Positions 1,333-17,295 of a stretch of 64,000 nucleotides of DNA are shown in pieces. The first letter of the stretch is position 1; each line of letters opens with the position of its first letter. Made by a program: the position numbers and the translations under genes. This stretch comes from Hyalangium ruber (GTDB lineage Bacteria; Myxococcota; Myxococcia; Myxococcales; Myxococcaceae). A model generated the notes under the pieces. The model was not told the DNA's origin. It did no database searches and saw only the letters and a list, made by a program, of their open reading frames with translations. The stretch spans positions 806,001 through 870,000 of the forward strand of contig NZ_JAXIVS010000002.1 in the NCBI RefSeq assembly GCF_034259325.1, written 5' to 3'.

Positions 1333-3111
1333 CTACTCCAGTGACGGCGCGGTGTCTCCCGGCATCAGCGCCTGCCGCGCCAGGGTCATGGGGAGCCCCA
1401 GCCGAAGCAGCCGGTCATGGAAGTCGCGCAGCGAGTAGGGCTGACCGAGCGCCTGCTGCCGGGCTCGGTAGTCCTCGCGCAGCTTGAGGATCTGCATGCG
1501 CCCCAGCGCGTAATAAAGGTAGGTGGGGTTGAAGGTGCCGCGCTGCACCTCGCGCAGCGCCGGGAAGGGCTCGAAGTAGGCGATCTCCGCGTAGCGTTTG
1601 GCCACCTGCTCCACCGGCTCGCCGAAGACATGGAGCGCCAGGGCCGCATGCCAGCGCGCGTGCCGCTGGAGCGCCCGCCGCAGCTGGCCGAGCCGGATGG
1701 CGGGGTCTCCTCCGCCCAGCCCCTCATCCACCATCATCTGCTCGGTGTAGTGCGCCCAGCCCTCCACCAGCGAGGCGGGGGTGAACACCTTGCGCACATC
1801 GGTGGGAATCTGGGCCTCGTACAAGAGCTGCACGAAGTGGCCCGGAATCGCCTCGTGGACGGTGATGCCCAGGAGCCCCGCGCGGCTGAAGTACGTGAGG
1901 TGCTGCGCCTTCTGCTCCGGCGTCCAGTCGGGCTCCACGTTGGTGATGTTGTAGTAGGCCTCGGTGGCGCGCTCTTCGAAGGGACCGGGCGAGTCCATGG
2001 AGGCAAAGCCCATGCGTGCGTAGGGCGGCGTCTCGCGCACGGTGGGCAGGCTCTTCGAGGGCAGCGTCACCAGGTCCTTCTCGATGACGAAGCGCTGCAC
2101 CTCTTGAAGCTGCCGCTGAGCGGTGGGGATGAGCTCCTCGGCGGACGGGTAGTCCTGGGAGATGGCGGCCATGACCTGCGCCGGGGTGCGCTTCGGGTCG
2201 ATGCGGGCGGCCTCGCGGGCCACCCACTCCTGGTAGTAGCGGATGGCCCGCTCGTTGATATCCCGGAGCTGCTCGGCCGACAGCTCGACGTGCTCCTCCA
2301 GGGCCAGCTTCTTCTCGAAGAGCGCCTTGCCCAGGCGGAAGTCACCGGTGGCCTTGGGGAACACTTCCTGTTCCAGCCAGCGTGCGAAGTCCTCCACCTC
2401 CGCTTGCGCCTTCTGGCGCGCGCTCTCGAACTCGCCACGCAGGCGTGCATCCACCCGAGCCAGGCCCTGGGCTTCGAGGGCGGCGGGAAGGTCCTTGCGC
2501 AAGTACTCCGCGGTGCCCCGAGTGTCCCTCACAGCCTGCTCGGCCCAAGGCTTGGGCACGTCGGCGAGGTTGGCCTTGGCCGCGGCGATGATGGCGGGGA
2601 CGGCGGCCATGCGGGCCATGAGGCTGCGCATCCGTTCCTCGATGGGGGCGAACTCGCGCGAGGACAGCGAGGACAGGCCGTAGACGATGATGCTGCTGTA
2701 GCCCATGGGGTCGCGGCGCCACTCGCGCACCTCCTCCAGTTCGAGGAGGCTGGCGCGCATTGCGTTCTCCAGGATGCGCACGTCGAACACGTTGTCCCCG
2801 GTAAGGGCGGTGCGGTCGATGCGCTGCAGGCGGGCGAGCCAATCGTGGAGGGCGCGGGCCTCGCGCGCATGGGCCTCGGCGGAGAGGTCCGGCATCTGGG
2901 CGTCGTAGCGGTGGATGCCCAGGTTCGTGGCGCGCACGGGGTTCTGGGCGTAGTACCAGTCGAGGTACTCGCGGGCGAAGCGAGTGAACTCGGCGTCAGC
3001 GGGGGTGGGCATGGCTGCGGGAGCGGGCTCGGTCGCCGTCTTCGAGCGCGGGGCGCAGGCCCCCAGCAAGGCCAGAAGGGCGAGACAACAGAAGGTGCGA
3101 AGGGAAGTCAT
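1333..3111 (-). CDS. DUF885 family lipoprotein, probable zinc metallopeptidase
   Basis: A 592-residue protein with a lipoprotein signal (LALLGAC, Cys 19), so probably anchored in the envelope facing the periplasm or cell surface. The body matches DUF885. It carries HEAIPGH near residue 419, an HExxH-type zinc site extended as HExxPGH, and the downstream glutamate segment [12 protein letters not shown] that supplies the third ligand in this family. DUF885 members are predicted M32-like carboxypeptidases or general metallopeptidases; the substrate is not known. Length is normal for the family and no key residue is missing. It is transcribed alone toward the small lipoprotein gene. Confidence 0.85.
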
Positions 3112-5526: not shown

Positions 5527-8229
5527 ATGGAGGTTCGGAAGAAGCGACGCTGGCCCTATGTGCTGCTGGGCATCTTCGGCGTGCTGGTGCTTGCCGTGGT
5601 CGTGGTCCTGTGGCGGCTCGACAGCATCCTGCTGCAGCAGGCGCGCACCCAGACGGCCACGCTCTCGCAGCAGCTCGGGCGCCCCGTGGAGATTGGCGAC
5701 ATCTCCACCAAGCTGTTCCCGCACGTGGGCGTGGACGTGGAGAACGTCTCGGTGGGCGCCGCCGAGGGCGAGGAGCTGCCCCTGGCGCAGATGAAGAACC
5801 TGGACGTGCGCGTGGCGGCCATGCCGCTGCTCAAGTCGCGCGGCAAGGACATCCAGGTGCTCAACGCGGAGGTGTCCGGCCTCACGGTCAACGTCATCCG
5901 CCTGCCGGACGGCACCACCAACGTGCAGCGGCTGCAGGAGCGCCTCGCTCAGCAGCAGCCCAAGGAGGAGGAGCCGCCCGCCGAGGAGAAGCCCCCGGCC
6001 GACCTGTCGGGCGTGCGCGTGGACCGGGCGGCGCTCACCGACGGCACCATCCGCTTCGTGGACCGCTCGGGAGGCAAGGCGCAGGAGCTGGCCATCTCGG
6101 ACCTGGACATCGAGGTGAAGGACCTGCGCGTGGGCCAGCCGCTGGAGGTGAAGCTCTCGGCGGCGGTGCTGGCGCAGAAGCAGAACCTGTTCGCCACGCT
6201 GGCGGCCTCCCCGCTGCCGCCCACGCTGGTGCCCACTCCGGAGCGCCTCACGCTCAAGGCCGAGAGCATCGACCTGGCCCCCCTGGGCCCCTACCTGCCC
6301 CCGAGCGTCGGACTTCAGGCGGGCACGCTCACTGCGGACTGGAAGGCGGAGCTGGGCGGAGTGGTGCCCGGCGGCAAGGGCCCCACCCGGCTGGAAGGCG
6401 TCATCCGCGCGCTGGGCCTGCGCTTCGCGGGCGCCGAGGGCGGCAAGGCGCTGGACGTGGTGCTGGACACGGACGTGAAGGCGGACCTCGCCGCAGGAGA
6501 CCTGGCGCTGGACCGGCTCAAGCTGGACTTCGGGCCGGCGGGCATCACCGGCAAGGGCCGGGTAAAGGGGATGATGGGCAGCACGCCCACGGTGGAGGGC
6601 TTCGAGCTGACCAGCCACGACCTCGACCCAGCGGTGCTCGCTGAGTACTACCCGCCGCTGAAGAAGCAGCTCAACGGCATGATCGCTGGCCCCGTGGGTC
6701 TGTCGGTGCGAGGCAGCGGCACGCAGGAGGCGCAGGCGCTGAACGCGGAGGTGGACCTGACGCCGGTACGCCTGCGCATCCCCGAGCAGCTCTCCAAGGA
6801 GGCGGGGACGCCCATGCGAATCACCGCGCGCGTGTCCGGCGCGGCGGCGAGCGGCGGAGCGCTGCGCTTCGACGCGAAGGCGAACCTGGACGGCGCGGAC
6901 CTGCGGCCCGGGTTGCTCCTGGCCAAGGCCCCGGGCGACAAGCTCGACGTGGCCGCCACCGGCGCCTACCAGCCCATCAAGGACGGGATGAAGGTGGACG
7001 TGAGCCAGCTCACGGCGAACGTGAAGGAGGACACGCTGACGGGCACTGCCTCGTTCGCGCTGGCGGGCAAGGGCAAGAAGCAGACGACCACGTTCGCGAT
7101 GGACATGAAGGGCCAGCGGCTGAACGCGGACGCGCTGCTGATGAAGGACGAGGAGGTGATGGCGCGCAACAACGGGGTGCTGCCTCCACCGCCGGACGAC
7201 CCGACGCGCTTCAACGGCATGCGCGGCGACATCCGCTTCCAGGTGGCCTCGCTGCGCTACAGCGAGATGGACCTGGCCAACATGGTGGCGCACGTGACCA
7301 TGGTGGATGACCTCATCAAGGTGGAGAAGTTCTCCTCGGCCGTCTACGGCGGCACGGTGGTGGCGGACGGGACACAGGTGAACCTGGGGCCCAAGCCAGA
7401 GCAGCGGGCCTTCGAGGCCAAGGTGGTGATGCAGGGCGTGGACGTGGCGCAGACCCTGGCCGAGCGCACGCCCAAGAAGGTGCTCACCGGAAGGTTCAAC
7501 GGGAACGTGGACCTCAAGGGCGTGGGCTACACGCCGGACAAGCTCAAGGAGACGCTGCTGGGCGCCGTCAACGGCAACCTGGAGGGCGCCACCTTCATGG
7601 GCATGGACGTCATCGGGGCCGTCACCGAGCCGCTGGCCAAGGCGCTGCCCTTCGCGGCCAAGGCGCTCAAGAGCGGGGACGTGACGTCGCTGAGCGAGAA
7701 CCTGCCCTTCGGCGTGGAGATCAAGAACGGCGTGGCGCAGCTGGAGCGGCCCATCACCTGGACGCGACCCGAGGGCGCCCTGCACTTCGATGGCGGCATC
7801 CGGCTGGACGGAGTGCTGGATCTGACCGGCTCGGTGAACCTGACGCCGCAGACGATCAACAAGCTCACCCTGGGCAAGGTGACGCCCACCGAGAACATCC
7901 CCGTGGGCATGAAGGTGACGGGCCCGGCGTGGAAGCCCGAAATCACGGGCATCGACGTGAAGCCGGCGGTGACAACCATCGCGAAGCTGGCGGCGACGGG
8001 ACTCGCGGGGGAGCTGCTCGGCGAGAAGGGCAAGCAGGTGCAGCAGATCATCACCGGTGGCGAGCAAGCCGCGCGCGCGGAGGCCGAGCGCCAGAAGCAG
8101 GAGTTGGAGAAGAAGGCGGCCGAGGAGAAGGCGAAGCTGGAGCAGGCGGCCAAGGCCGAGCAGGAGCGCGCGAAGAAAAAGGCGGAGGAAGAGGCCAAGA
8201 AGAAGCTACGAGGCATCTTCGGGAAGTAG
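5527..8229 (+). CDS. AsmA-family envelope protein
   Basis: A 900-residue protein starting at ATG 5527 behind a strong GGAGGAGGT. A basic N-terminus and one membrane span (about residues 10-30, YVLLGIFGVLVLAVVVVLW) are followed by the AsmA N-terminal pattern (GRPVEIGDISTKLFPHVGVDVENVSVG) and long repeating beta-rich segments. These are typical of AsmA/TamB-like proteins, which bridge the periplasm and are linked to lipid transport and outer-membrane biogenesis. The C-terminal 60 residues are an E/K/A-rich coiled coil (QKQELEKKAAEEKAKLEQ) ending in KKLRGIFGK, which is unusual for the family. It is divergent from the SitA toxin gene and 12 bases upstream of a small membrane-protein gene. The family is clear; the cargo is unknown. 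Confidence 0.85.
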   Translation: MEVRKKRRWPYVLLGIFGVLVLAVVVVLWRLDSILLQQARTQTATLSQQLGRPVEIGDISTKLFPHVGVDVENVSVGAAEGEELPLAQMKNLDVRVAAMPLLKSRGKDIQVLNAEVSGLTVNVIRLPDGTTNVQRLQERLAQQQPKEEEPPAEEKPPADLSGVRVDRAALTDGTIRFVDRSGGKAQELAISDLDIEVKDLRVGQPLEVKLSAAVLAQKQNLFATLAASPLPPTLVPTPERLTLKAESIDLAPLGPYLPPSVGLQAGTLTADWKAELGGVVPGGKGPTRLEGVIRALGLRFAGAEGGKALDVVLDTDVKADLAAGDLALDRLKLDFGPAGITGKGRVKGMMGSTPTVEGFELTSHDLDPAVLAEYYPPLKKQLNGMIAGPVGLSVRGSGTQEAQALNAEVDLTPVRLRIPEQLSKEAGTPMRITARVSGAAASGGALRFDAKANLDGADLRPGLLLAKAPGDKLDVAATGAYQPIKDGMKVDVSQLTANVKEDTLTGTASFALAGKGKKQTTTFAMDMKGQRLNADALLMKDEEVMARNNGVLPPPPDDPTRFNGMRGDIRFQVASLRYSEMDLANMVAHVTMVDDLIKVEKFSSAVYGGTVVADGTQVNLGPKPEQRAFEAKVVMQGVDVAQTLAERTPKKVLTGRFNGNVDLKGVGYTPDKLKETLLGAVNGNLEGATFMGMDVIGAVTEPLAKALPFAAKALKSGDVTSLSENLPFGVEIKNGVAQLERPITWTRPEGALHFDGGIRLDGVLDLTGSVNLTPQTINKLTLGKVTPTENIPVGMKVTGPAWKPEITGIDVKPAVTTIAKLAATGLAGELLGEKGKQVQQIITGGEQAARAEAERQKQELEKKAAEEKAKLEQAAKAEQERAKKKAEEEAKKKLRGIFGK

Positions 8230-8586: not shown

Positions 8587-8648
8587 GCCCACCCGGGAGG
8601 TCGCCGGGCATTGGACGGGTCCCAGCCAACATGGAAATGTAGAGGGGC

Positions 8649-9854
8649 ATGAACTCCGCGCCTCGACCGACCGTGCTGTGCCTGGCCAGCTTCTTCAAGG
8701 GCAACCGCTTCTTCCAGCGACTGCACGAAGAGGGCTGCTACGTCATCCTGATCACCTCGGAGAAATTCAAGGACGAGGACTGGGCCCGGCAGTACATCCA
8801 CGAGTTCCACTCCGTGGCCTCGTTCGAGGACCGCACGGCGCTGCTCAACGGCGTGTCGTGGCTGTTCCGCAACCGGCGCATCGATCGGATCGTCGCGCTG
8901 GACGACTTCGACGTGGAGGTCGCGGCGGCGATGCGCGAGCACTTCCGCATGCCCGGCATGGGCGACACGGCCGCGCGCTTCTTCCGCGACAAGCTCGCCA
9001 TGCGGGTAAAGGCGAAGGAGGTGGGCATCAACGTCCCGCGCTTCACGCCCGTCTTCCACCACCCGGATGTCACGAAGTTCCTGGCCGAGGTACCCGCGCC
9101 CTGGCTCATCAAGCCCCGGGGCGAGGCCTCCGCCGTCGGCATCAAGAAGCTGCGGTCCGCCGACGAGGCCTGGGCGGCCATCCACGAGCTGGGGGACAAG
9201 CAGTCGCACCACGTCCTGGAGCAGATGATCCCCGGCGAGCTGTACCACGTGGACTCGCTCGTGCAGGACGGGAAGATCGCCTTCGCGGAGGTGGGCAGCT
9301 ACGGCCGGCCCCTGCTGGAGGTCGCCCACGAGGGCGGCATCTACGTGACGCGCACGCTGCGCCGCGACTCGAAGGAGGCGCGCCTGCTGCTGGAGGCCAA
9401 CGCCGCGGTGCTCCAGGGCTTCGGGCTGCGCCGAGGCGCCTCGCACACCGAGTTCATCATCGGCCGCGAGGATGGAAAGCCCTACTTCATCGAGACGTCG
9501 GCCCGCGTGGGCGGCGCGAACATCTCGGAGATGGTGGAGGCCGCCACGGGCGTGAACCTGTGGAGCGAGTGGGCGAAGCTCGAAATCGAAGGCGAGGGCT
9601 TCGCCTACAAGCCGCCGCGCGTCCGTGAGGAGTACGCGGGCGTGGTCATCTCCCTGGCCCGCGACGAGTACCCGGACACTCGCTCGTTCAGCGATCCGGA
9701 GATCATCGAGCGGCTCAAGAAGAAGAACCACATCGGGTTCGTCGTGCGCTCCCCGAAGCAGGAGCGCGTCGAGGAGCTGCTCAAGGCGTACCTGGAGCGC
9801 ATCTCCCGGGAGTTCCACGCCTCGCTCCCGGCCCCGCCGAAGTCGACCTCGTAG
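8649..9854 (+). CDS. ATP-grasp carboxylate-amine ligase
   Basis: A 401-residue soluble protein starting at ATG 8649 behind AGAGGGG. It has a Rossmann-like pre-ATP-grasp part (PTVLCLASFFKGNRFFQRL, residues 7-25; IDRIVALDDFDVEVAAAMRE near 80-100). The ATP-grasp fold follows: DKLAMRVKAKEVGINVPR, APWLIKPRGEASAVGIKK (nucleotide-binding Lys) and HVLEQMIPGELYHVDSLV. The Mg-binding end is TEFIIGREDGKPYFIETSARVGG. Such enzymes activate a carboxylate as acyl-phosphate and join it to an amine. The substrates are unknown. It stands first in a block with other amide ligases (13716, 14717, 15896) and converges on the M17 aminopeptidase, 8 bases away. Confidence 0.85.
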   Translation: MNSAPRPTVLCLASFFKGNRFFQRLHEEGCYVILITSEKFKDEDWARQYIHEFHSVASFEDRTALLNGVSWLFRNRRIDRIVALDDFDVEVAAAMREHFRMPGMGDTAARFFRDKLAMRVKAKEVGINVPRFTPVFHHPDVTKFLAEVPAPWLIKPRGEASAVGIKKLRSADEAWAAIHELGDKQSHHVLEQMIPGELYHVDSLVQDGKIAFAEVGSYGRPLLEVAHEGGIYVTRTLRRDSKEARLLLEANAAVLQGFGLRRGASHTEFIIGREDGKPYFIETSARVGGANISEMVEAATGVNLWSEWAKLEIEGEGFAYKPPRVREEYAGVVISLARDEYPDTRSFSDPEIIERLKKKNHIGFVVRSPKQERVEELLKAYLERISREFHASLPAPPKSTS

Positions 9855-9862
9855 CAGCCCGC

Positions 9863-11410
9863 TCAGCCGCGCTGCCGGACCTCGAGCGCCTCCACCAGGG
9901 AGGCGATGGGCGACCCGGTGGGCCTCCCCGCCTGCCAGTCCGCGGGCGTCACCACGACGCCCGAGATGTCCAGGTGGACGAACGGAAGCTGCGAGCCGCG
10001 CAGCCCGGCCGCCACGTCGATGAAGGCAAACGGCCCCTGGTGCCCGCGCGGAGTGTCCACGCTGGCGAGCCGATTGCTCGACAGCACGTCCTCCGTCGGA
10101 GCCTTGGGCGCCACGAACAGATAGTCCTCGCGCCGGGGCACCGTGGACTCGAGCGGCTCGCCCAGGAGCTCACCCGCCTCGCTCAGCGTCCGGATGAAGC
10201 CCTGCGCCCGCGCCGCGCCGTTCTCGATGGCACCGACGTAGGGCCCGAAGGCCCGGTACACGTGGCCCGTCAACGTCGCCACCGAGAGCAGCACGGAGGA
10301 CGCCGGATCCGCGCTCTCCTTGAGCGCCGCGAGCAGATCCGCCAGCACCAGGCGCCCCTCCGCGTCCGTGTTCCCGATACGGACGCGCACGCCCGAGCGG
10401 CCGGTGATGATCTCATCCGAGACGAACGACTCCTCGCCGATGCTGTTGCGCACCATGCCCAGCAAGGCGACGACCCGCAGCCCAGGCACCTTCCGCTCCG
10501 CCAGCGCCCGAACCAGCCCCGCCGCCGTCGCGGCCCCGCCCTTGTCGCGCGACATGCCGGCCATGCCGCCATCCGTCTTCACGTCCGCGCCACCCGTGTC
10601 GTAGGTGACGCCCTTGCCGGCAATCAGCAGGGTGCGCGTGACGGGACCCTCTGGCACCAGCTCCAGCGACACCACGCACGGCCTGTGGCGCTCCACCACC
10701 ATCGACGCCTGCGCGACCGCCGCGAGCAACGGATAGCCGGACACGTCCTTCTGCACCGAGACCTTCACCCCCGTGCCCGCGAACGCCTCCTCGCAATACG
10801 CGGCGAAGCGCAGCGGCGCCAACCGCTCGGGGCCTCCCGTCACCAGGTCCCGGCAGATCATCCGCCCCGCCTCCAGCGCGCTCACCCACGCGGCCGCCTG
10901 GCTCGACAGGTTCACCACCGTGAGCTTGCGCAGCTCCGTGGGCGGCGCGCGGCGCGAGGGAGACTCCCGCGCCTCCAGCGGCTCCCACGCCGTCCCCGCC
11001 GCAGCGAGCGCACAGGCCTCCAGGGCCCGGGAGAACCGCGCCCCCTTCGGCACGCCGACGAGCAGCACGGGGTTCGACGCGCCCGCCTGCACCGCCCGTG
11101 AAACCGCGGCCGCACTCGCCTCCGACAGCACCCGGCAATCGTCCGTGTCATGCACGATGGGCGCGGTCGGCGCGAGGATGATCCGCCCTCCCGGCGCGGC
11201 GGAAGACGCCACCACGGTGGGCGCCGGGCTCCCTTCGGCCAGCGCCCGGTCGGCGGCGAGCGCGGCTTCCACCGCTCGCTTGCCCTCCAGCGACAGCCCC
11301 AGCCCCTCCAGCGCGACCCTCAGCGGCGCGGGCGCGACAATCACCAGCGCATCTGCTTCCTTCGCCGCGGAAACCTCCGCGGCGCCCTCGATAACGACTC
11401 GCTTGCTCAC
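9863..11410 (-). CDS. M17 (leucyl aminopeptidase) family metallopeptidase
   Basis: A 515-residue protein starting at GTG 11410. The M17 catalytic domain is complete: GKGVTYDTGGADVKTDGGM supplies the metal-binding Lys and Asp, SRDKGGAATAAG the next Asp, and NTDAEGRLVLADLL (from residue 347) the Asp/Glu ligands and the catalytic Arg. The N-terminal 160 residues form the usual macrodomain-like leader. The enzyme removes N-terminal residues or splits dipeptides with two divalent metals in the cytoplasm. It lies inside the amide-ligase block, on the strand opposite the subtilase, whose start is 91 bases away (divergent). It may trim or recycle peptides from that pathway (inference) or be an ordinary housekeeping peptidase. 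Confidence 0.88.
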   Translation of the reverse strand: MSKRVVIEGAAEVSAAKEADALVIVAPAPLRVALEGLGLSLEGKRAVEAALAADRALAEGSPAPTVVASSAAPGGRIILAPTAPIVHDTDDCRVLSEASAAAVSRAVQAGASNPVLLVGVPKGARFSRALEACALAAAGTAWEPLEARESPSRRAPPTELRKLTVVNLSSQAAAWVSALEAGRMICRDLVTGGPERLAPLRFAAYCEEAFAGTGVKVSVQKDVSGYPLLAAVAQASMVVERHRPCVVSLELVPEGPVTRTLLIAGKGVTYDTGGADVKTDGGMAGMSRDKGGAATAAGLVRALAERKVPGLRVVALLGMVRNSIGEESFVSDEIITGRSGVRVRIGNTDAEGRLVLADLLAALKESADPASSVLLSVATLTGHVYRAFGPYVGAIENGAARAQGFIRTLSEAGELLGEPLESTVPRREDYLFVAPKAPTEDVLSSNRLASVDTPRGHQGPFAFIDVAAGLRGSQLPFVHLDISGVVVTPADWQAGRPTGSPIASLVEALEVRQRG

Positions 11411-11501
11411 GGGCGGACCATCCCATAGGTGGCCTCCGGAGCAGACTCGGAAAACCGCCGTGCATCACCGGTAGCCGACCGATATCCTGGGAGCACCAAC
11501 C

Positions 11502-12710
11502 ATGTCCGACATCACGAAGCCCGCCGGTGCCGTCGTCTACGGAGAGCGTCCCCTTCTCGAGCAGGAGCCCCCCACCATCTGGCCGCAGGGAGAGCCCGCC
11601 CTGGAGGAGATCCTCCCCATCGCCCAGCGGCTCGCGGTCAACCCGCACTACCAGGGCCGGGGCGTCACGGCGGCCTTCCTGGACTCGGGCTTCTTCGCGC
11701 ACCCGGACCTGATGGAGCCGCGCTGCCGCATCCGCCGCTACTACGACCTGGTGAACGACAAGGAGGGCCTGGACCTCATCCGCAAGCCGGACAACTCCAT
11801 GTGGCACGGGATGATGACGTCCACCGTGGCCGCCGGGAACGGGTTCCTCTCGGACGGGAAGTACAAGTCGCTGGCCCCCGAGATGGACGTGGTGTTGGTG
11901 AAGGTGGGGCACCTGTCGCGCGTGAAACATGACGACATCGCCCGGGGCATCCGCTGGGTGATTGCCCACAAGGACGAGCTGGGCATCCGCGTGCTCAACA
12001 TCTCGGCCGGCGGTGACTACGAGGCCAGCTACCTCGTGGACCCCATCTGCCAGGCCGCCGAGGACGCCGTCCGCGCCGGAATCACTGTCGTCTGCGCCGT
12101 CGGCAACGCCGCCCACGGCCGCAACCACGTCATCGCCCCGGCCAGCACCCCGGCGGTCATCACCGTGGGAGGCCTGGATGACCGGGGAGACCCCCGGCTC
12201 GGTCGTATGGGCACATACTGGTCTTGCTTCGGTCCGACCATCGACGGGCTGCAGAAGCCCGAGGTCATGGCGCCGGCCATCTGGGTGGTCGCTCCCATCC
12301 TTCCCGACACCCCCACGGCCCAGGAGGCGGAGCTGCTCACCCTGCTGGACGGCACCCCGGACAAGGAACTCGGCCGGGTGTTGAGCGAGCGTGTAGGCAT
12401 CATCCGGGAACTGGACTCGGTGAAGAACGACGAGCCGTACCTCATCCGACAGCTGATCGGCTCCAAGCTGAGAGATCAGAAGGTGGTTTCAGGGGCTTAC
12501 AAGCACGTGGATGGCACCTCGTTCGCCGCCCCCATCGTCACCAGCATCGTGGGACAGATGCTGGAGGCCAACCCCCGGCTGACCCCCACCGATGTAAAGC
12601 GAATCCTCATCGCCACGGGGCGGCGGCTGCCCAGCGTGGCCGTGGAGCGCCAGGGCTGGGGCGTCGTCCAGCCGGCGGCCGCCATCACCGAGGCGGAACG
12701 GCGCCGCTAG
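11502..12710 (+). CDS. S8 subtilisin-like serine protease, no signal peptide
   Basis: A 402-residue protein starting at ATG 11502 behind GGGAG. The S8 triad is visible: Asp 61 in FLDSGFFAHPDL, His 102 in MWHGMMTSTVAAG, and Ser 340 in DGTSFAAP; the oxyanion Asn is in VCAVGNAAHGRN. There is no leader or propeptide-like secretion signal, so it probably works in the cytoplasm. An insertion of about 80 residues sits between the oxyanion region and the Ser motif (TPTAQEAELLTLLDGTPDKE... to SKLRDQ). It leads the co-directional set subtilase-GATase-ATP-grasp-GCS2 ligase. A leader-processing or product-releasing role is inferred from this context. Confidence 0.85.
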   Translation: MSDITKPAGAVVYGERPLLEQEPPTIWPQGEPALEEILPIAQRLAVNPHYQGRGVTAAFLDSGFFAHPDLMEPRCRIRRYYDLVNDKEGLDLIRKPDNSMWHGMMTSTVAAGNGFLSDGKYKSLAPEMDVVLVKVGHLSRVKHDDIARGIRWVIAHKDELGIRVLNISAGGDYEASYLVDPICQAAEDAVRAGITVVCAVGNAAHGRNHVIAPASTPAVITVGGLDDRGDPRLGRMGTYWSCFGPTIDGLQKPEVMAPAIWVVAPILPDTPTAQEAELLTLLDGTPDKELGRVLSERVGIIRELDSVKNDEPYLIRQLIGSKLRDQKVVSGAYKHVDGTSFAAPIVTSIVGQMLEANPRLTPTDVKRILIATGRRLPSVAVERQGWGVVQPAAAITEAERRR

Positions 12711-12716
12711 CCGGGT

Positions 12717-12734
12717 GGGGGGGTACCCCCTTTT
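12717..12734 (+). terminator. Short G/C hairpin with T run between the subtilase and GATase genes
   Basis: A run of seven G, TA, five C and then TTTT directly follows the subtilase stop. It can fold as a 5-bp stem with a T tail, so it is a weak intrinsic terminator or attenuator that could lower read-through into the three ligase-pathway genes. It may also be a chance feature of GC-rich DNA. Confidence 0.3.
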
Positions 12735-12768
12735 CACTGCGGCTCAAAACCGGATACACGGGGGGCAC

Positions 12769-13719
12769 ATGACTCCCGCAGGTCGTTCCCGTTCCCTCCG
12801 TATCGGCCTCATCGACATGAACAACGGGGTGCCCAACCAGGCCATCCGTTCGTTCCGGTCCATCATCGCCGCCTTCTCGGAGCGCGTCCGCGCCCGCAAC
12901 CCCGGGCTCTCCGTCACCACCGCGCACGTGCAGCCGCGCAACCTCGGCGAGGCGCCTCCCGCCGATTGCGACCTCTACCTGAGCACCGGTGGCCCCGATG
13001 CGCCCGTGGACGGCTTCAAGGAGAGCTGGGCTCCCGGCATCCGCTCGTTCATCGACAGCATCGTCGACGGGCAGCTCCAGCGGGGCAGCACCGCGCCGGC
13101 CCTCTTCTCGGTCTGCTACTCGTTCGAGATCACCGTCATGCACTTCGGGCTCGCGGCGATGATTCCGCGCGAGCGCAAGTTCGGCATCATGCCCGTGTAC
13201 CCGACGGAGGAAGGCCTGGCCTCCCCGATGTTCGCGCCGTTCGGGGACCGGCTCTTCGTGTGGGAGCACCGCAGCTGGCAGGCGGTGGACCTGGATGAGA
13301 AGAAGCTGAAGGAATTGGGCGGCACGCTGCTGGCGCGCGAGAGCCGCGACGGACACAGCAAGGGCCGGGGGCTGATGGCCTTCCGCTTCTCGAAGGGTGT
13401 CGAGGGCACCATCTTCCACCCCGAGGCGGACCGGCCCGGCGTGCTCAACTGGCTCGAGCGCCCCGAGCAGGCCAAGGCCGTCATCGAGACGTACGGCGAG
13501 CTGGTCTACCGCCGCATGTGCAAGACGATCGACGACCCGAGCCGGCTGGCGCGCACCTACGCGCTGCTGCTGCCGGGCTGGATGGCGCGCACCTTCAACG
13601 CGATGGCACTGGATCGCGACTGGGCCCCGGTGGACATGCCGACGTATGACGCGGCGCTGGGCCTGGATGCCTTTGGCCGACCTGCGGAAGCAACGGTCTC
13701 TGCGGAGAGCAACTCGTGA
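12769..13719 (+). CDS. Class I glutamine-amidotransferase-like protein
   Basis: A 316-residue protein, ATG 12769 behind GGGGGG. It shows the class I GATase layout: an N-terminal IGLIDMNNGVPNQAIRSF strand-loop, the oxyanion-type loop DLYLSTGGPDAP, and a nucleophile elbow with Cys 116 in LFSVCYSFEITVMHFG. The His 217/Glu 219 pair is in TIFHPEADRPG. These match the Cys-His-Glu triad of GMP-synthase-type amidotransferases, although the elbow is SVCYSF rather than the usual GICYGHQ, so the substrate may not be glutamine. The C-terminal 80 residues are an extra helical part. Its stop overlaps the start of the next ATP-grasp gene (GTGA), so the two are translationally coupled and may deliver ammonia to, or hydrolyse the product of, that ligase. 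Confidence 0.75.
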   Translation: MTPAGRSRSLRIGLIDMNNGVPNQAIRSFRSIIAAFSERVRARNPGLSVTTAHVQPRNLGEAPPADCDLYLSTGGPDAPVDGFKESWAPGIRSFIDSIVDGQLQRGSTAPALFSVCYSFEITVMHFGLAAMIPRERKFGIMPVYPTEEGLASPMFAPFGDRLFVWEHRSWQAVDLDEKKLKELGGTLLARESRDGHSKGRGLMAFRFSKGVEGTIFHPEADRPGVLNWLERPEQAKAVIETYGELVYRRMCKTIDDPSRLARTYALLLPGWMARTFNAMALDRDWAPVDMPTYDAALGLDAFGRPAEATVSAESNS

Positions 13720-14714
13720 ACAAGAAGATTGGAATTCTGGCGGGGATGGAGTGGGACCATTTCCCGATGGCGCTGATCCAGCGCATCAACAAGATTCCGG
13801 GGTTCGAGGCGGAGCTGGCGAAGATCGACGCCACCCCGGAGGACTTCACCGCGAAGTACGACGTGCTCGTCGACCGCATCAGCCACGAGGTGCCGTTCTA
13901 CCGGTTCCACCTCAAGGCGGCGATGCTGGCCGGCACCTACGTCATCAATGATCCGTTCTGGTTCTCGGCGGACGACAAGTTCTTCGGCTTCTCGCTGGCC
14001 CACCGCATCGGCGTCACCGTGCCGAAGACGATGATGCTGCCGCAGCGCGAGTACCTGCCGGCCATCGACCCGAAGCGCTCGCTGAACAACCTGGTCTACC
14101 CGCTCGACTGGGAGGCCATCGCCCGGCACGTGGGCTTCCCCGCCATCTGCAAGCCCGCGGACGGCGGCGGCTGGCGCAACGTGAACCGCGTCAACAACAT
14201 GGACGAGCTGATGCGCGTCTACAACGAGTCGGGACAGCTCGTGCTGACGATGCAGCAGTTCATCGAGTTCGATGACTACGTGCGCTGCCTGTGCATCGGC
14301 CGGGACAACATCCGGATGATCCGCTACGACGTGAAGACGCGCAGCTACCTGCCGGACAAGAACTTCCTGCCGGCGGCGCTGGAGCAGCGCATCCTCGACG
14401 GCGCGCGCGAGCTCAACCGGGCGCTCGGCTACGACATGAACTCGGTGGAGTTCGCCATCAAGGACGGCGTGCCCTACGCCATCGACTTCACCAACCCGGC
14501 GCCGGACATGTATCCGCACCACATCCTCGAGGACAACTACGAGTGGTGCCTGGAGAAGATGACGGAGCTGTGCGTCAGCGCCGCGCGCGAGGGCCGCAAG
14601 AATGACGCCGGCCACGTGTGGCAGCGCTACCTGGAGAAGAAGGCGTCTCGTCCGGCGGCCTCCTCGGCCGCGCCGCGAGCTTCCGCCGTGCGTGTCGCGA
14701 AGGGGGGTTCTTGA
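13716..14714 (+). CDS. ATP-grasp ligase (RimK/glutathione-synthetase-like)
   Basis: A 332-residue protein starting at GTG 13716, overlapping the GATase stop by 4 bases. MNKKIGILAGMEWDHFPMAL begins a pre-ATP-grasp domain. The ATP-grasp segments are IGVTVPKTMMLPQ, HVGFPAICKPADGGGWRNV (Lys and the Gly-rich loop), LVLTMQQFIEFDDYVRCLCI, and the metal site MNSVEFAIKDGVPYAIDFTN. The length matches small peptide ligases. The last 30 residues are a low-complexity Ala/Ser tail. It is followed 2 bases later by the GCS2-type ligase, so two different amide-forming enzymes and one amidotransferase are made together. The substrates are unknown. Confidence 0.82.
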   Translation: MNKKIGILAGMEWDHFPMALIQRINKIPGFEAELAKIDATPEDFTAKYDVLVDRISHEVPFYRFHLKAAMLAGTYVINDPFWFSADDKFFGFSLAHRIGVTVPKTMMLPQREYLPAIDPKRSLNNLVYPLDWEAIARHVGFPAICKPADGGGWRNVNRVNNMDELMRVYNESGQLVLTMQQFIEFDDYVRCLCIGRDNIRMIRYDVKTRSYLPDKNFLPAALEQRILDGARELNRALGYDMNSVEFAIKDGVPYAIDFTNPAPDMYPHHILEDNYEWCLEKMTELCVSAAREGRKNDAGHVWQRYLEKKASRPAASSAAPRASAVRVAKGGS

Positions 14715-14716
14715 AC

Positions 14717-15871
14717 ATGAAGCCATCGAATCTGCTGGATGGTCAGTTCACGCTGGGTGTCGAGGAAGAGTTCCAGATCATCGACGGGCAGAGCCATGAG
14801 CTGCGCTCGTACATCTCGAAGATGATGGACGATGGGAAGACCGTGCTGCGCGAGCGCGTGCGCACGGAGCTGCACCAGTCCGTGGTCGAGGTGGGCACCG
14901 GCATCTGCAAGAACATCCACGAGGTGCGCGCCGAGCTGACCGAGATGCGGCTCGAGCTGGACCGGCTGGCGCGCAAGGGCGGCATGAACATCGTCGCCGC
15001 CGGCACGCACCCGTTCAGCGACTGGAAGAGCCAGGAGATTACGCCCAACCCGCGCTACCAGGTCATCGTCGAGGACCTGCAGGACATCGCCCGGGGCAAC
15101 CTCATCTTCGGGCTCCACGTCCACGTCGGCATCAAGGACAAGCAGACGGCCATCGCCCTGGCGAACCAGATCCGCTACTTCCTGCCGCACCTGCTGGCGC
15201 TGTCCACCTCCTCGCCGTTCTGGCTGGGGCGCGCCACGGGCCAGCAGTCGACGCGTACGCTGATCTTCAAGCGCTTCCCGCGCACCGGCATTCCTCCCAC
15301 GTTCGAGAGCTACTCCCAGTTCATGGAGTACGTGGACCTGCTCATCCGGACCAACTGCATCGACAACGGGAAGAAGATCTGGTGGGACGTGCGCGTCCAC
15401 CACCTGTTCGACACGGTCGAGATTCGCATCTGCGACATGCCGACCAACCTGGAGCAGGAGATCTCCATCGTCTCGCTCATCCAGGCGCTGGTGGCCCAGC
15501 TCTACCTGATGCTGCGCCGCAACCAGTCGTGGCGGCACTACATGTCGCCGTTGATTGAGGAGAACAAGTGGCGGGCCAGCCGCTACGGCATCCGGGGCAA
15601 GCTCATCGACTTCGGCCAGCAGCAGGAGCGGCCGTACACGGAGCTGCTGGAGGAGATGATCGCCTTCGTCTCCGAGGCCTCGGACCTGCTGGGCACCTCG
15701 GAGCAGGTGGCCTCGGTGCGGAAGATTCTCGAGCAGGGCACGTCGGCGGAGCGGCAGCTCGAGGTCTTCAAGAACAACAACAACGACCCGCGCGCGGTGG
15801 TGCGCTGGCTGGTGGAGGAGACGATGCGAGGCGTGGGTACCCCGCCCGCGTCCGCCAGCCAGGCGGGGTAG
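14717..15871 (+). CDS. Carboxylate-amine ligase, GCS2/YbdK type
   Basis: A 384-residue protein, ATG 14717, with AGGGGGG 9 bases upstream and only 2 bases after the preceding stop. It belongs to the glutamate-cysteine ligase type 2 family (glutamine-synthetase fold). Supporting segments are FTLGVEEEFQIID near the start, ELHQSVVEVGTGICKNIHEV, AAGTHPFSDW, GLHVHVGIKD (metal/nucleotide-binding His) and VEIRICDMPTNLEQ. YbdK relatives have weak gamma-glutamylcysteine ligase activity in vitro, but their natural products are mostly unknown. Placement with two ATP-grasp ligases and a GATase-like protein argues for a role in a specialised peptide or amide product rather than glutathione synthesis. Confidence 0.88.
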   Translation: MKPSNLLDGQFTLGVEEEFQIIDGQSHELRSYISKMMDDGKTVLRERVRTELHQSVVEVGTGICKNIHEVRAELTEMRLELDRLARKGGMNIVAAGTHPFSDWKSQEITPNPRYQVIVEDLQDIARGNLIFGLHVHVGIKDKQTAIALANQIRYFLPHLLALSTSSPFWLGRATGQQSTRTLIFKRFPRTGIPPTFESYSQFMEYVDLLIRTNCIDNGKKIWWDVRVHHLFDTVEIRICDMPTNLEQEISIVSLIQALVAQLYLMLRRNQSWRHYMSPLIEENKWRASRYGIRGKLIDFGQQQERPYTELLEEMIAFVSEASDLLGTSEQVASVRKILEQGTSAERQLEVFKNNNNDPRAVVRWLVEETMRGVGTPPASASQAG

Positions 15872-15895
15872 TTCCGCTACCGGCCGAGGGCGGTG

Positions 15896-17104
15896 CTAGC
15901 CCGCCTTCGGCCAGAGCGCGACGGAGGAGCCGACCCAGTCCAGGCCCTTGTTGAAGTCGATCCCGAGCATCTTGCCTCGGGACAGGCGCACGAGGTTCAT
16001 GAACGGCTGAGGCAGGCGCTGGCCCTCGTCGCGCAGGCAGAGCACGCGAATCTCGGCGGCCACGCCGTGGCCCTCGGGGGTGAACAGCTCGCGGGCGTAG
16101 TTGATCTTCTGCTGGAGGATCCACCCTTCGCGCTGATCCGCCGGTACCCCGGCGATGTCCTCGGCCGTGGGGTCCACCTTCACGCCTGCACCGGCGTAGG
16201 AGAACAGCGGCTTGAGCACGTAGCGCTCGAGGTCCGTCGGCACCTCCTGGAGCTGGGACAGGGGGGTGGCCTTGGGCACGGAGGGGTGGTCGAGCAGAGG
16301 CAGCGAGAACTTCGACCACATCCAGTACCAGTTGGGGTGCGGGCACCAGCTCACGTCCAGGTCGTCCGTGAACTTGAAGGCCATGGGCGGCTTCTTCTGC
16401 TGGAGCTCATCGAAGACGACCCGGTTGTAGATGCGCCGGATGCGGAGCTTGCGGCCGTCCTTCATGCGGAAGAGCTGACGGCCCTCGCGGATGACCTCGG
16501 TCACGCACACGGGCTCGATGCCGGTGAGCTCCTGGGTGGCGACGAAGTCCGGACGGGTCTTCTGCTTATCGGGTTCGATCTCCAGCAGGACGACCTCTTC
16601 CGGGCTGAAACCGCCCAGGAGGGCGCGACGGAAGAACGCGTGCGCGCTGTCGAAGTCGAAGCCGGGGGCGAAGCAGTGAAAGCCTCCGGCGGCCTCGGGC
16701 ATCTTCACCATCTCATTGAAGATGCGCGCCTGGATCATGGTGAAGGCGAACAGGGAGGGGAACGCCTGCAGCTCGACCACCTGCCCGTCGAGCTGGCCGT
16801 CGGGGCCTCGGACGACGGCGAAGTCGACGGTCATGACATCCGGCGCGGCGTCCTGATTCGGCACGTCATACTCGGGCGGGACGGCGGTGCGCGCGCGGTC
16901 AAGGCGCTCGGGCTCGGCCAGCTGCTCGATGATCTCCTGCGTGTAGCGGAAGATGCGGTCGCGCGTGGCTGGGGGGATGAAGAGCGGCGACTCCGCGAGC
17001 CGGTACGGAACGGGCCCCACCACGGCCTGCAGCCGATTCCGGTACTGCTCATAGAGCTCGGGGGAGAAGACCTGGTTGTAGAGGCGTCGAAAGTCGGAGT
17101 GCAT
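15896..17104 (-). CDS. Divergent ATP-grasp-like protein
   Basis: A 402-residue protein, ATG 17104 (MHSDFRRLYNQVF). No family could be named with certainty. The C-terminal third has an ATP-grasp-like series: ERYVLKPLFSYAGAGVKV (Lys before a Gly-rich loop), GWILQQKINYARELFTPEGH, and AAEIRVLCLRDE as the acidic/Arg metal-phosphate strand. The middle contains VQVVELQAF-like and RIRRIYNRVVFDELQ segments, the second resembling the arm before the grasp domain in glutathionylspermidine-synthase-like proteins. It converges on the GCS2 ligase (24 bases between stops) and is transcribed away from the second SitA cassette. It is probably another ligase of the block; alternatively an unrelated protein of unknown function. 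Confidence 0.6.
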   Translation of the reverse strand: MHSDFRRLYNQVFSPELYEQYRNRLQAVVGPVPYRLAESPLFIPPATRDRIFRYTQEIIEQLAEPERLDRARTAVPPEYDVPNQDAAPDVMTVDFAVVRGPDGQLDGQVVELQAFPSLFAFTMIQARIFNEMVKMPEAAGGFHCFAPGFDFDSAHAFFRRALLGGFSPEEVVLLEIEPDKQKTRPDFVATQELTGIEPVCVTEVIREGRQLFRMKDGRKLRIRRIYNRVVFDELQQKKPPMAFKFTDDLDVSWCPHPNWYWMWSKFSLPLLDHPSVPKATPLSQLQEVPTDLERYVLKPLFSYAGAGVKVDPTAEDIAGVPADQREGWILQQKINYARELFTPEGHGVAAEIRVLCLRDEGQRLPQPFMNLVRLSRGKMLGIDFNKGLDWVGSSVALWPKAG

Positions 17105-17295
17105 TTGCGGCGGCGAAATTAACACGCGTCGTGTGGCTCCTGCGCAGACCCAGCAACGCGGGGGTTGGCTCCCTGCCTGCACCTCTCGGAGACAGGACTT
17201 CTCCTTTGATCTCCAACAGAATGCGGAGCCCAGCTTCGCGCCGACTGATTCCAAGCCCTTGGAAGGATTGAGCTTGTCGGTAACCTGAACTCCCT

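Follow-up and report, generated by a model that had tools for sequence, protein, structure and literature searches.

The genome of the soil myxobacterium Hyalangium ruber contains a block of genes for four amide-bond-forming ligases, an amidotransferase-like protein, and two peptidases, and the genes of this block very probably act together as one unit. Our proposal, for which we would claim just short of an even chance, is that the block assembles and trims a nonribosomal gamma-glutamyl peptide or peptide-amide, in the manner of an elaborated glutathione/glutathionylspermidine pathway. We analyzed the block within a window of 64,000 nt (assembly GCF_034259325.1, contig NZ_JAXIVS010000002.1, positions 806,001–870,000 of the forward strand), and coordinates below are those of the window.

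Genes and protein families of the block

All seven genes named in the original prediction are present at 8649–17104 with open and intact reading frames, and the ligase, GATase-like, and peptidase family calls hold, by profile for 8649, 9863, 11502, and 14717, by a weak match for 13716, and by predicted fold for 12769 and 15896. An S8 subtilase (11502..12710, plus strand, 402 aa; Peptidase_S8, 2.5e-35), a class I GATase-fold hydrolase-like protein (12769..13719, plus strand, 316 aa), a RimK/LysX-like ATP-grasp ligase (13716..14714, plus strand, 332 aa; weak match to RimK/LysX profiles), and a GCS2/YbdK-type carboxylate-amine ligase (14717..15871, plus strand, 384 aa; GCS2, 2.3e-63) form a plus-strand operon with gaps of 58, −4, and 2 bp. 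Upstream lies ATPg1, an ATP-grasp protein of the L-amino-acid-ligase kind (8649..9854, plus strand, 401 aa; Pfam ATP-grasp_4 with ATPgrasp_N). The block as a whole is not a single operon, because two of its genes lie on the minus strand: the M17 leucyl-aminopeptidase-like gene (9863..11410, 515 aa; Peptidase_M17, 2.6e-56) and the gene of the last ligase (15896..17104, 402 aa), which converges on GCS2. M17 and S8 point away from each other, and the 91 bp between them (11411..11501) are a likely promoter region. As was first noted from the DNA, there is no short precursor gene: the gaps within the block (−4 to 91 bp) leave no room for one, and a search beside the ligases for a small tag or precursor gene of the Pup/graspetide type found none that is conserved. 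To the left of the conserved block, the flank encodes a DUF885 protein (1333–3111, minus strand) and an AsmA-like protein (5527–8229, plus strand).

The structure of the last ligase, predicted from ten orthologues (pLDDT 85.6), was most similar to E. coli YgiC (Z 26.0) and to YjfC (Z 24.8), at 15–16% identity. It also matched the plant, yeast, and human glutathione synthetases (Z ~23), GspS (~23), trypanothione synthetase (~22), and Cp1B (9cjn, Z 22.2). The matches at Z 20–26 span ~310–370 of the 402 residues, and the next kind of ATP-grasp protein scored only Z ~7. By its predicted fold, 15896–17104 is thus a ligase of the glutathione-synthetase/GspS type over its full length; the earlier description of it as an "ATP-grasp-like protein" was right about the ligase fold but too generic. 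No curated family of Pfam or NCBIfam matches it above cut-off. In particular, the GSP_synth profile (PF03738) scores 12.5 bits, below its cut-off of 29.3, so we file the protein as working like GSP_synth enzymes and not as a member of PF03738.

In the YgiC/GspS/glutathione synthetase fold, the usual metal/acyl-phosphate motifs are R-x-D and E-x-N. By inspection, not by superposition on a structure, T/Q-x-D stands for the first of these in the last ligase, and E-L-Q for the second. A second GspS-like family (F4CP), whose relatives retain R-x-D and E-x-N, fills the place of the last ligase in other phyla (match to the putative glutathionylspermidine synthase 3n6x, 8.8e-10), and the two families alternate among clusters. 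Direct profile comparison of the two gave a collinear match that was weak (probability 25%), so the case for their common descent is that both match GspS-type enzymes.

The best solved relatives of ATPg1 are L-amino-acid ligases like RizA, BL00235, and BacD (4wd3, 3.6e-19; 3vot, 1.7e-15), and its orthologues share 43–88% identity. The metal-ligand motifs of ATPg1 (E-x-[SA]-x-R) and of the RimK-like ligase (D-F-T-N), also read by inspection, are off the usual form. Because these motifs deviate in three ligases, the chemistry of the last ligase, the RimK-like ligase, and ATPg1 may differ from the usual. The protein at 14717 belongs to the GCS2/YbdK family by its profile matches (PF04107, 214.7 bits against a cut-off of 21; PRK13515, NF010039, 518 against 371 bits), and we predict ATP-dependent gamma-glutamyl ligase activity for it. 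Its orthologues retain at least 48% identity across phyla, and 13 of them show no variation at the candidate catalytic residues E16/E17/E51/E58/H134/H136. The surroundings of a second GCS2 copy in the same genome (contig C6) hold no genes of the block.

The predicted structure of 12769–13719 (pLDDT 85.3) has the fold of a class I glutamine amidotransferase, with Z about 21 (1o1y, 21.5; Arabidopsis gamma-glutamyl peptidase, 20.6). Among the solved structures nearest to it are tm1158, MetA, DnfC, and Arabidopsis gamma-glutamyl peptidase 1, and gamma-glutamyl hydrolase and glutamine amidotransferases are also near. A C-H-E triad (C116/H217/E219) is invariant in 11 sequences, and the model confirms a class I GATase/gamma-glutamyl peptidase fold that carries this triad. 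A Pfam search with this protein gave no family at E 10, PF00117 included; one orthologue weakly matches PF00117 (15 bits against a cut-off of 22.8).

Conservation and distribution

Close RimK-like orthologues (at least 54% identity) were found in 10 of the 59 related genomes that we searched. The GATase-like gene (E < 1e-120) is confined to 9 of these 10 genomes, and so is the last ligase, to the same 9; ATPg1 (at least 44% identity) occurs in 8 of the 9. By simple counting that treats the genomes as independent, an overlap of 9 within 10 would have a chance of ~8e-10, but the genomes are not independent (three are of one genus). Four genomes (G044, G049, G053, and G056) have ATPg1 next to the last ligase but elsewhere in the assembly from the S8-GATase-RimK-GCS2 half, so the linkage is broken yet the co-occurrence is kept. 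The tenth genome (G037, a UBA5297; L034/L057) has a degraded-looking cluster, in which the RimK-like gene is intact, the S8 gene is split among several frames, and the GATase gene is no more than a trace; the last ligase and ATPg1 were not found in that genome.

These results bear on whether the genes are chance neighbors with unrelated housekeeping roles, which we consider extremely improbable. The mixed strands and the lineage-specific M17 gene might suggest as much. However, several families of the order have orthologous clusters, the GATase-like gene, the last ligase, and ATPg1 co-occur almost perfectly, and the homologues are not scattered without a shared neighborhood, which the original prediction had named as the outcome that would count against it. 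For the S8, GATase, RimK, GCS2, last-ligase, and ATPg1 genes, the idea of chance neighbors is refuted; it stands for M17 alone. The prediction of a specialized, dedicated multi-ligase pathway is thus well supported by co-occurrence and conserved neighborhood, while we infer its product and order of reactions.

The ends of the block are sharp. H. versicolor shares 8639–17180 with the window at 82–87% nucleotide identity, and its flanks (~4 and 7 kb) have no detectable similarity to the window. Similarity to the window runs to 17185 in the MAG Zod and to 17115 in the MAG HOG29. A close RimK-like orthologue is present in only 3 of the 35 other members of the family to which H. ruber belongs. The block travels as a block, and either loss or transfer would fit. 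We also considered a tRNA-flanked island, and found no tRNA within positions 1–30000 of the window.

The two peptidases, both originally taken as members of the pathway, differ in their conservation. The subtilase is a core member: in most clusters of Myxococcota, its orthologues adjoin the GATase-RimK genes. It matches the S8 profile, its triad (D61/H102/S340) is invariant, and it has no evident signal peptide or propeptide. The M17 protein has metal-ligand motifs that are intact by eye, but its gene adjoins the block only in Hyalangium (H. ruber and H. versicolor) and in HOG29; since it is found beyond Hyalangium only in this nearest relative, we place it outside the core, as an accessory. 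Other lineages have M61, M24, M28 (L056), or M29 (which we assigned from sequence) beside the ligases in place of M17. That five unrelated peptidase families occur in the same place suggests that a trimming step is needed and that the enzyme is exchangeable. In HOG29 and other relatives, the block also includes an esterase-like alpha/beta-hydrolase (EST); the nearest relative of this enzyme in the H. ruber genome is on another contig (C10), at 57% identity. A paralogue on C18 stands after a gene that resembles a secreted lipoprotein, and its membership in the cluster is unsupported.

Beyond these relatives, a scan of named genomes gave at least 524 RimK-like relatives. The best 80 of these are from Myxococcota, Acidobacteriota, Chloroflexota, Gemmatimonadota, Planctomycetota, and Bacteroidota/Ignavibacteriota/Chlorobiota, with one labelled Proteobacteria, and the RimK tree broadly follows the phyla. 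For 40 loci that extended at least 5 kb to each side, we counted partners within 7 kb at a bit-score cut of 100, and 32 had at least one other family of the block (GspS-like ligase in 24, GCS2 in 20, esterase-like hydrolase in 17, S8 in 11). Among the best 80, 21 RimK-like genes had no partner in reach. (Families were mapped on stop-to-stop frames; our home-made gene caller gave some spurious genes.) Related clusters of RimK-like, GCS2, and GspS-like genes occur in Myxococcota, Acidobacteriota, Chloroflexota, Gemmatimonadota, and Bacteroidota/Ignavibacteriota, and often add an alpha/beta-hydrolase, a subtilase, or an L-amino-acid-ligase-like gene. For example, Chloroflexota have compact S8-EST-RimK-GspS-like-GCS2-ATPg1 operons, Acidobacteriota have GCS2-RimK-GspS-like-M29, and Ignavibacterium (Ignavibacteriota) has EST-RimK-GCS2-GATase-last ligase.

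Some loci have other contents. Related myxobacteria (L041–L045) have a second, more distant kind of cluster, with S51-like, enterochelin-esterase-like, RimK-like, esterase, GCS2-CBS, AstE/AspA-like, and several ATP-grasp genes. In a Polyangium MAG, an ATP-grasp peptide ligase of the PGM1 type (L067:11147-12772), as in pheganomycin synthesis, follows S8-GATase-RimK. In the Chloroflexi CFX5/CFX10 (L087:4914-5675 and L093), two small tandem peptides are encoded 2–3 kb upstream of the S8-EST-RimK-GspS-like cluster. One of these matches the Nif11 domain and ends in a GG-like motif, and they are possible RiPP precursors. Nif11-like peptides were seen nearby only in these two near-identical loci.

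Proposed pathway and alternative readings

The proposal of a gamma-glutamyl peptide builds on what the analysis established, namely the block as a unit, the protein folds, and the catalytic triads that are conserved; it takes its substrates, order, and product from the chemistry of the families. GCS2 and ATP-grasp ligases form amides via acyl-phosphates. The first amide bond would come from ATPg1 (8649) and/or from GCS2 (14717), which would use the gamma-carboxyl of glutamate. The RimK-like ligase (13716) would then lengthen the product, and the YgiC/glutathione-synthetase-type ligase (15896) would cap its carboxyl end with an amino acid or an amine. The GATase-fold enzyme (12769) would strip gamma-glutamyl groups, which is what gamma-glutamyl peptidases of the class I GATase fold do. 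Finally, the cytosolic subtilase, the alpha/beta-hydrolase, and the lineage-specific peptidase would process or recycle the product. Several observations count against this reading. A cytosolic subtilase exceeds the needs of a tripeptide-sized product and suits a longer substrate, the metal-ligand motifs of three ligases, as read by inspection, are not of the usual form, and MetA and glutamine amidotransferases are among the closest GATase folds as well. The product does not seem to be a simple replacement for glutathione, because the H. ruber genome also has a canonical glutathione synthetase gene (gshB), which is present in some cluster-bearing relatives and absent from others. No thiol- or polyamine-specific gene was seen recurring beside the clusters.

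A second possibility, somewhat unlikely in our view, is that the block tags or modifies proteins. The RimK-like and GCS2 ligases would add glutamyl or other residues to the termini or side chains of a protein or peptide, the last ligase would cap them, and the subtilase, the GATase-like protein, and the aminopeptidase would remove them. RimK itself glutamylates a ribosomal protein; 13716 matches the RimK/LysX families, and the core includes a cytosolic S8 endopeptidase. However, no conserved small gene for a tag or target lies beside the block, the gaps are too small to hold one, and the precedents for L-amino-acid ligases and YgiC/GSS-type ligases are small molecules.

Third, the block could make a small bioactive natural product, such as a peptidyl-amine protease inhibitor, from stand-alone amide ligases. 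This would suit the patchy distribution in the family of H. ruber, the flanks that differ between hosts, and the PGM1-type ligase in the one Polyangium cluster (L067), and E-64 is made by an enzyme of related fold, Cp1B, with an amide synthetase (PMC12568646). This seems unlikely because deep conservation over several phyla and near-complete co-occurrence look more physiological, and because the clusters examined have no recurring oxygenase, transporter, or regulator.

Fourth, a Puu-like route could use or detoxify amines or amino acids, with the ligases adding gamma-Glu and the GATase-like protein removing it. The GCS2 ligase and a C-H-E triad in a GATase fold near gamma-glutamyl peptidase/hydrolase are as expected for such a route, and one cluster (L039) includes an amine oxidase. 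We consider it quite improbable, as the amine oxidase is in that locus only and four ligases plus a subtilase exceed the needs of the route.

Relation to known systems

Returning to the gamma-glutamyl peptide, the block resembles glutathione, glutathionylspermidine, and trypanothione synthesis in combining a gamma-glutamyl carboxylate-amine ligase with ATP-grasp ligases and a gamma-glutamyl-peptidase-like hydrolase, and the whole fold of its last ligase is also that of GspS and of eukaryotic glutathione synthetase. In contrast to those pathways, it has four ligases instead of two or three, its GCS2 protein is of the PRK13515 kind and not a known GCL, it adds a subtilase and an L-amino-acid-ligase-like enzyme, its metal-ligand motifs differ, and the genome has a canonical gshB besides.

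Individual ligases have other counterparts. RizA, BL00235, and BacD, the best solved relatives of ATPg1, make free dipeptides; we know of no such cluster that includes them. To our knowledge, Cp1B has no GCS2 or RimK-like partner either. The peptide-spermidine ligases YgiC and YjfC have the solved structures closest to the last ligase, which, unlike them, is clustered with GCS2 and RimK-like genes, has E-L-Q for E-x-N, and has no Pfam family at cut-off. YgiC and YjfC have been named peptidylpolyamine synthetases, and the related Cp1B has been shown to couple an acid with amino acids (PMC12568646). Cp1B has the same ligase fold and serves to make a small amide without an NRPS, but it is fungal and is partnered with an amide synthetase and an oxygenase (PMC12568646).

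Hundreds of genomes carry the RimK-like ligase, often with GCS2 and a GspS-like ligase. It is possible, although doubtful, that Myxococcota, Acidobacteriota, Chloroflexota, Gemmatimonadota, and Bacteroidota/Ignavibacteriota have an undescribed peptide-based cofactor or protein tag that four amide ligases would build and dedicated hydrolases would remove. A glutathione-like peptide or tag, if true, would be a new low-molecular-weight peptide or modification for bacterial physiology. The context also suggests a function for 12769 and 15896, two families that lack curated profiles, and the compact Hyalangium version is testable, as the genus has cultured strains.

A 2009 survey by Iyer, Abhiman, Burroughs, and Aravind (reportedly Mol Biosyst 5:1636) is said to have predicted amidoligase-peptidase operons, in which ATP-grasp and GCS2 ligases occur with peptidases. 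In the searchable literature we found no description of this gene set (the tables of the 2009 survey may list parts of it). The general kind, amidoligase-peptidase gene sets, was thus reportedly already predicted, and this set is an apparently undescribed variant of that kind: as in the predicted operons, ATP-grasp and GCS2 ligases are mixed with peptidases.
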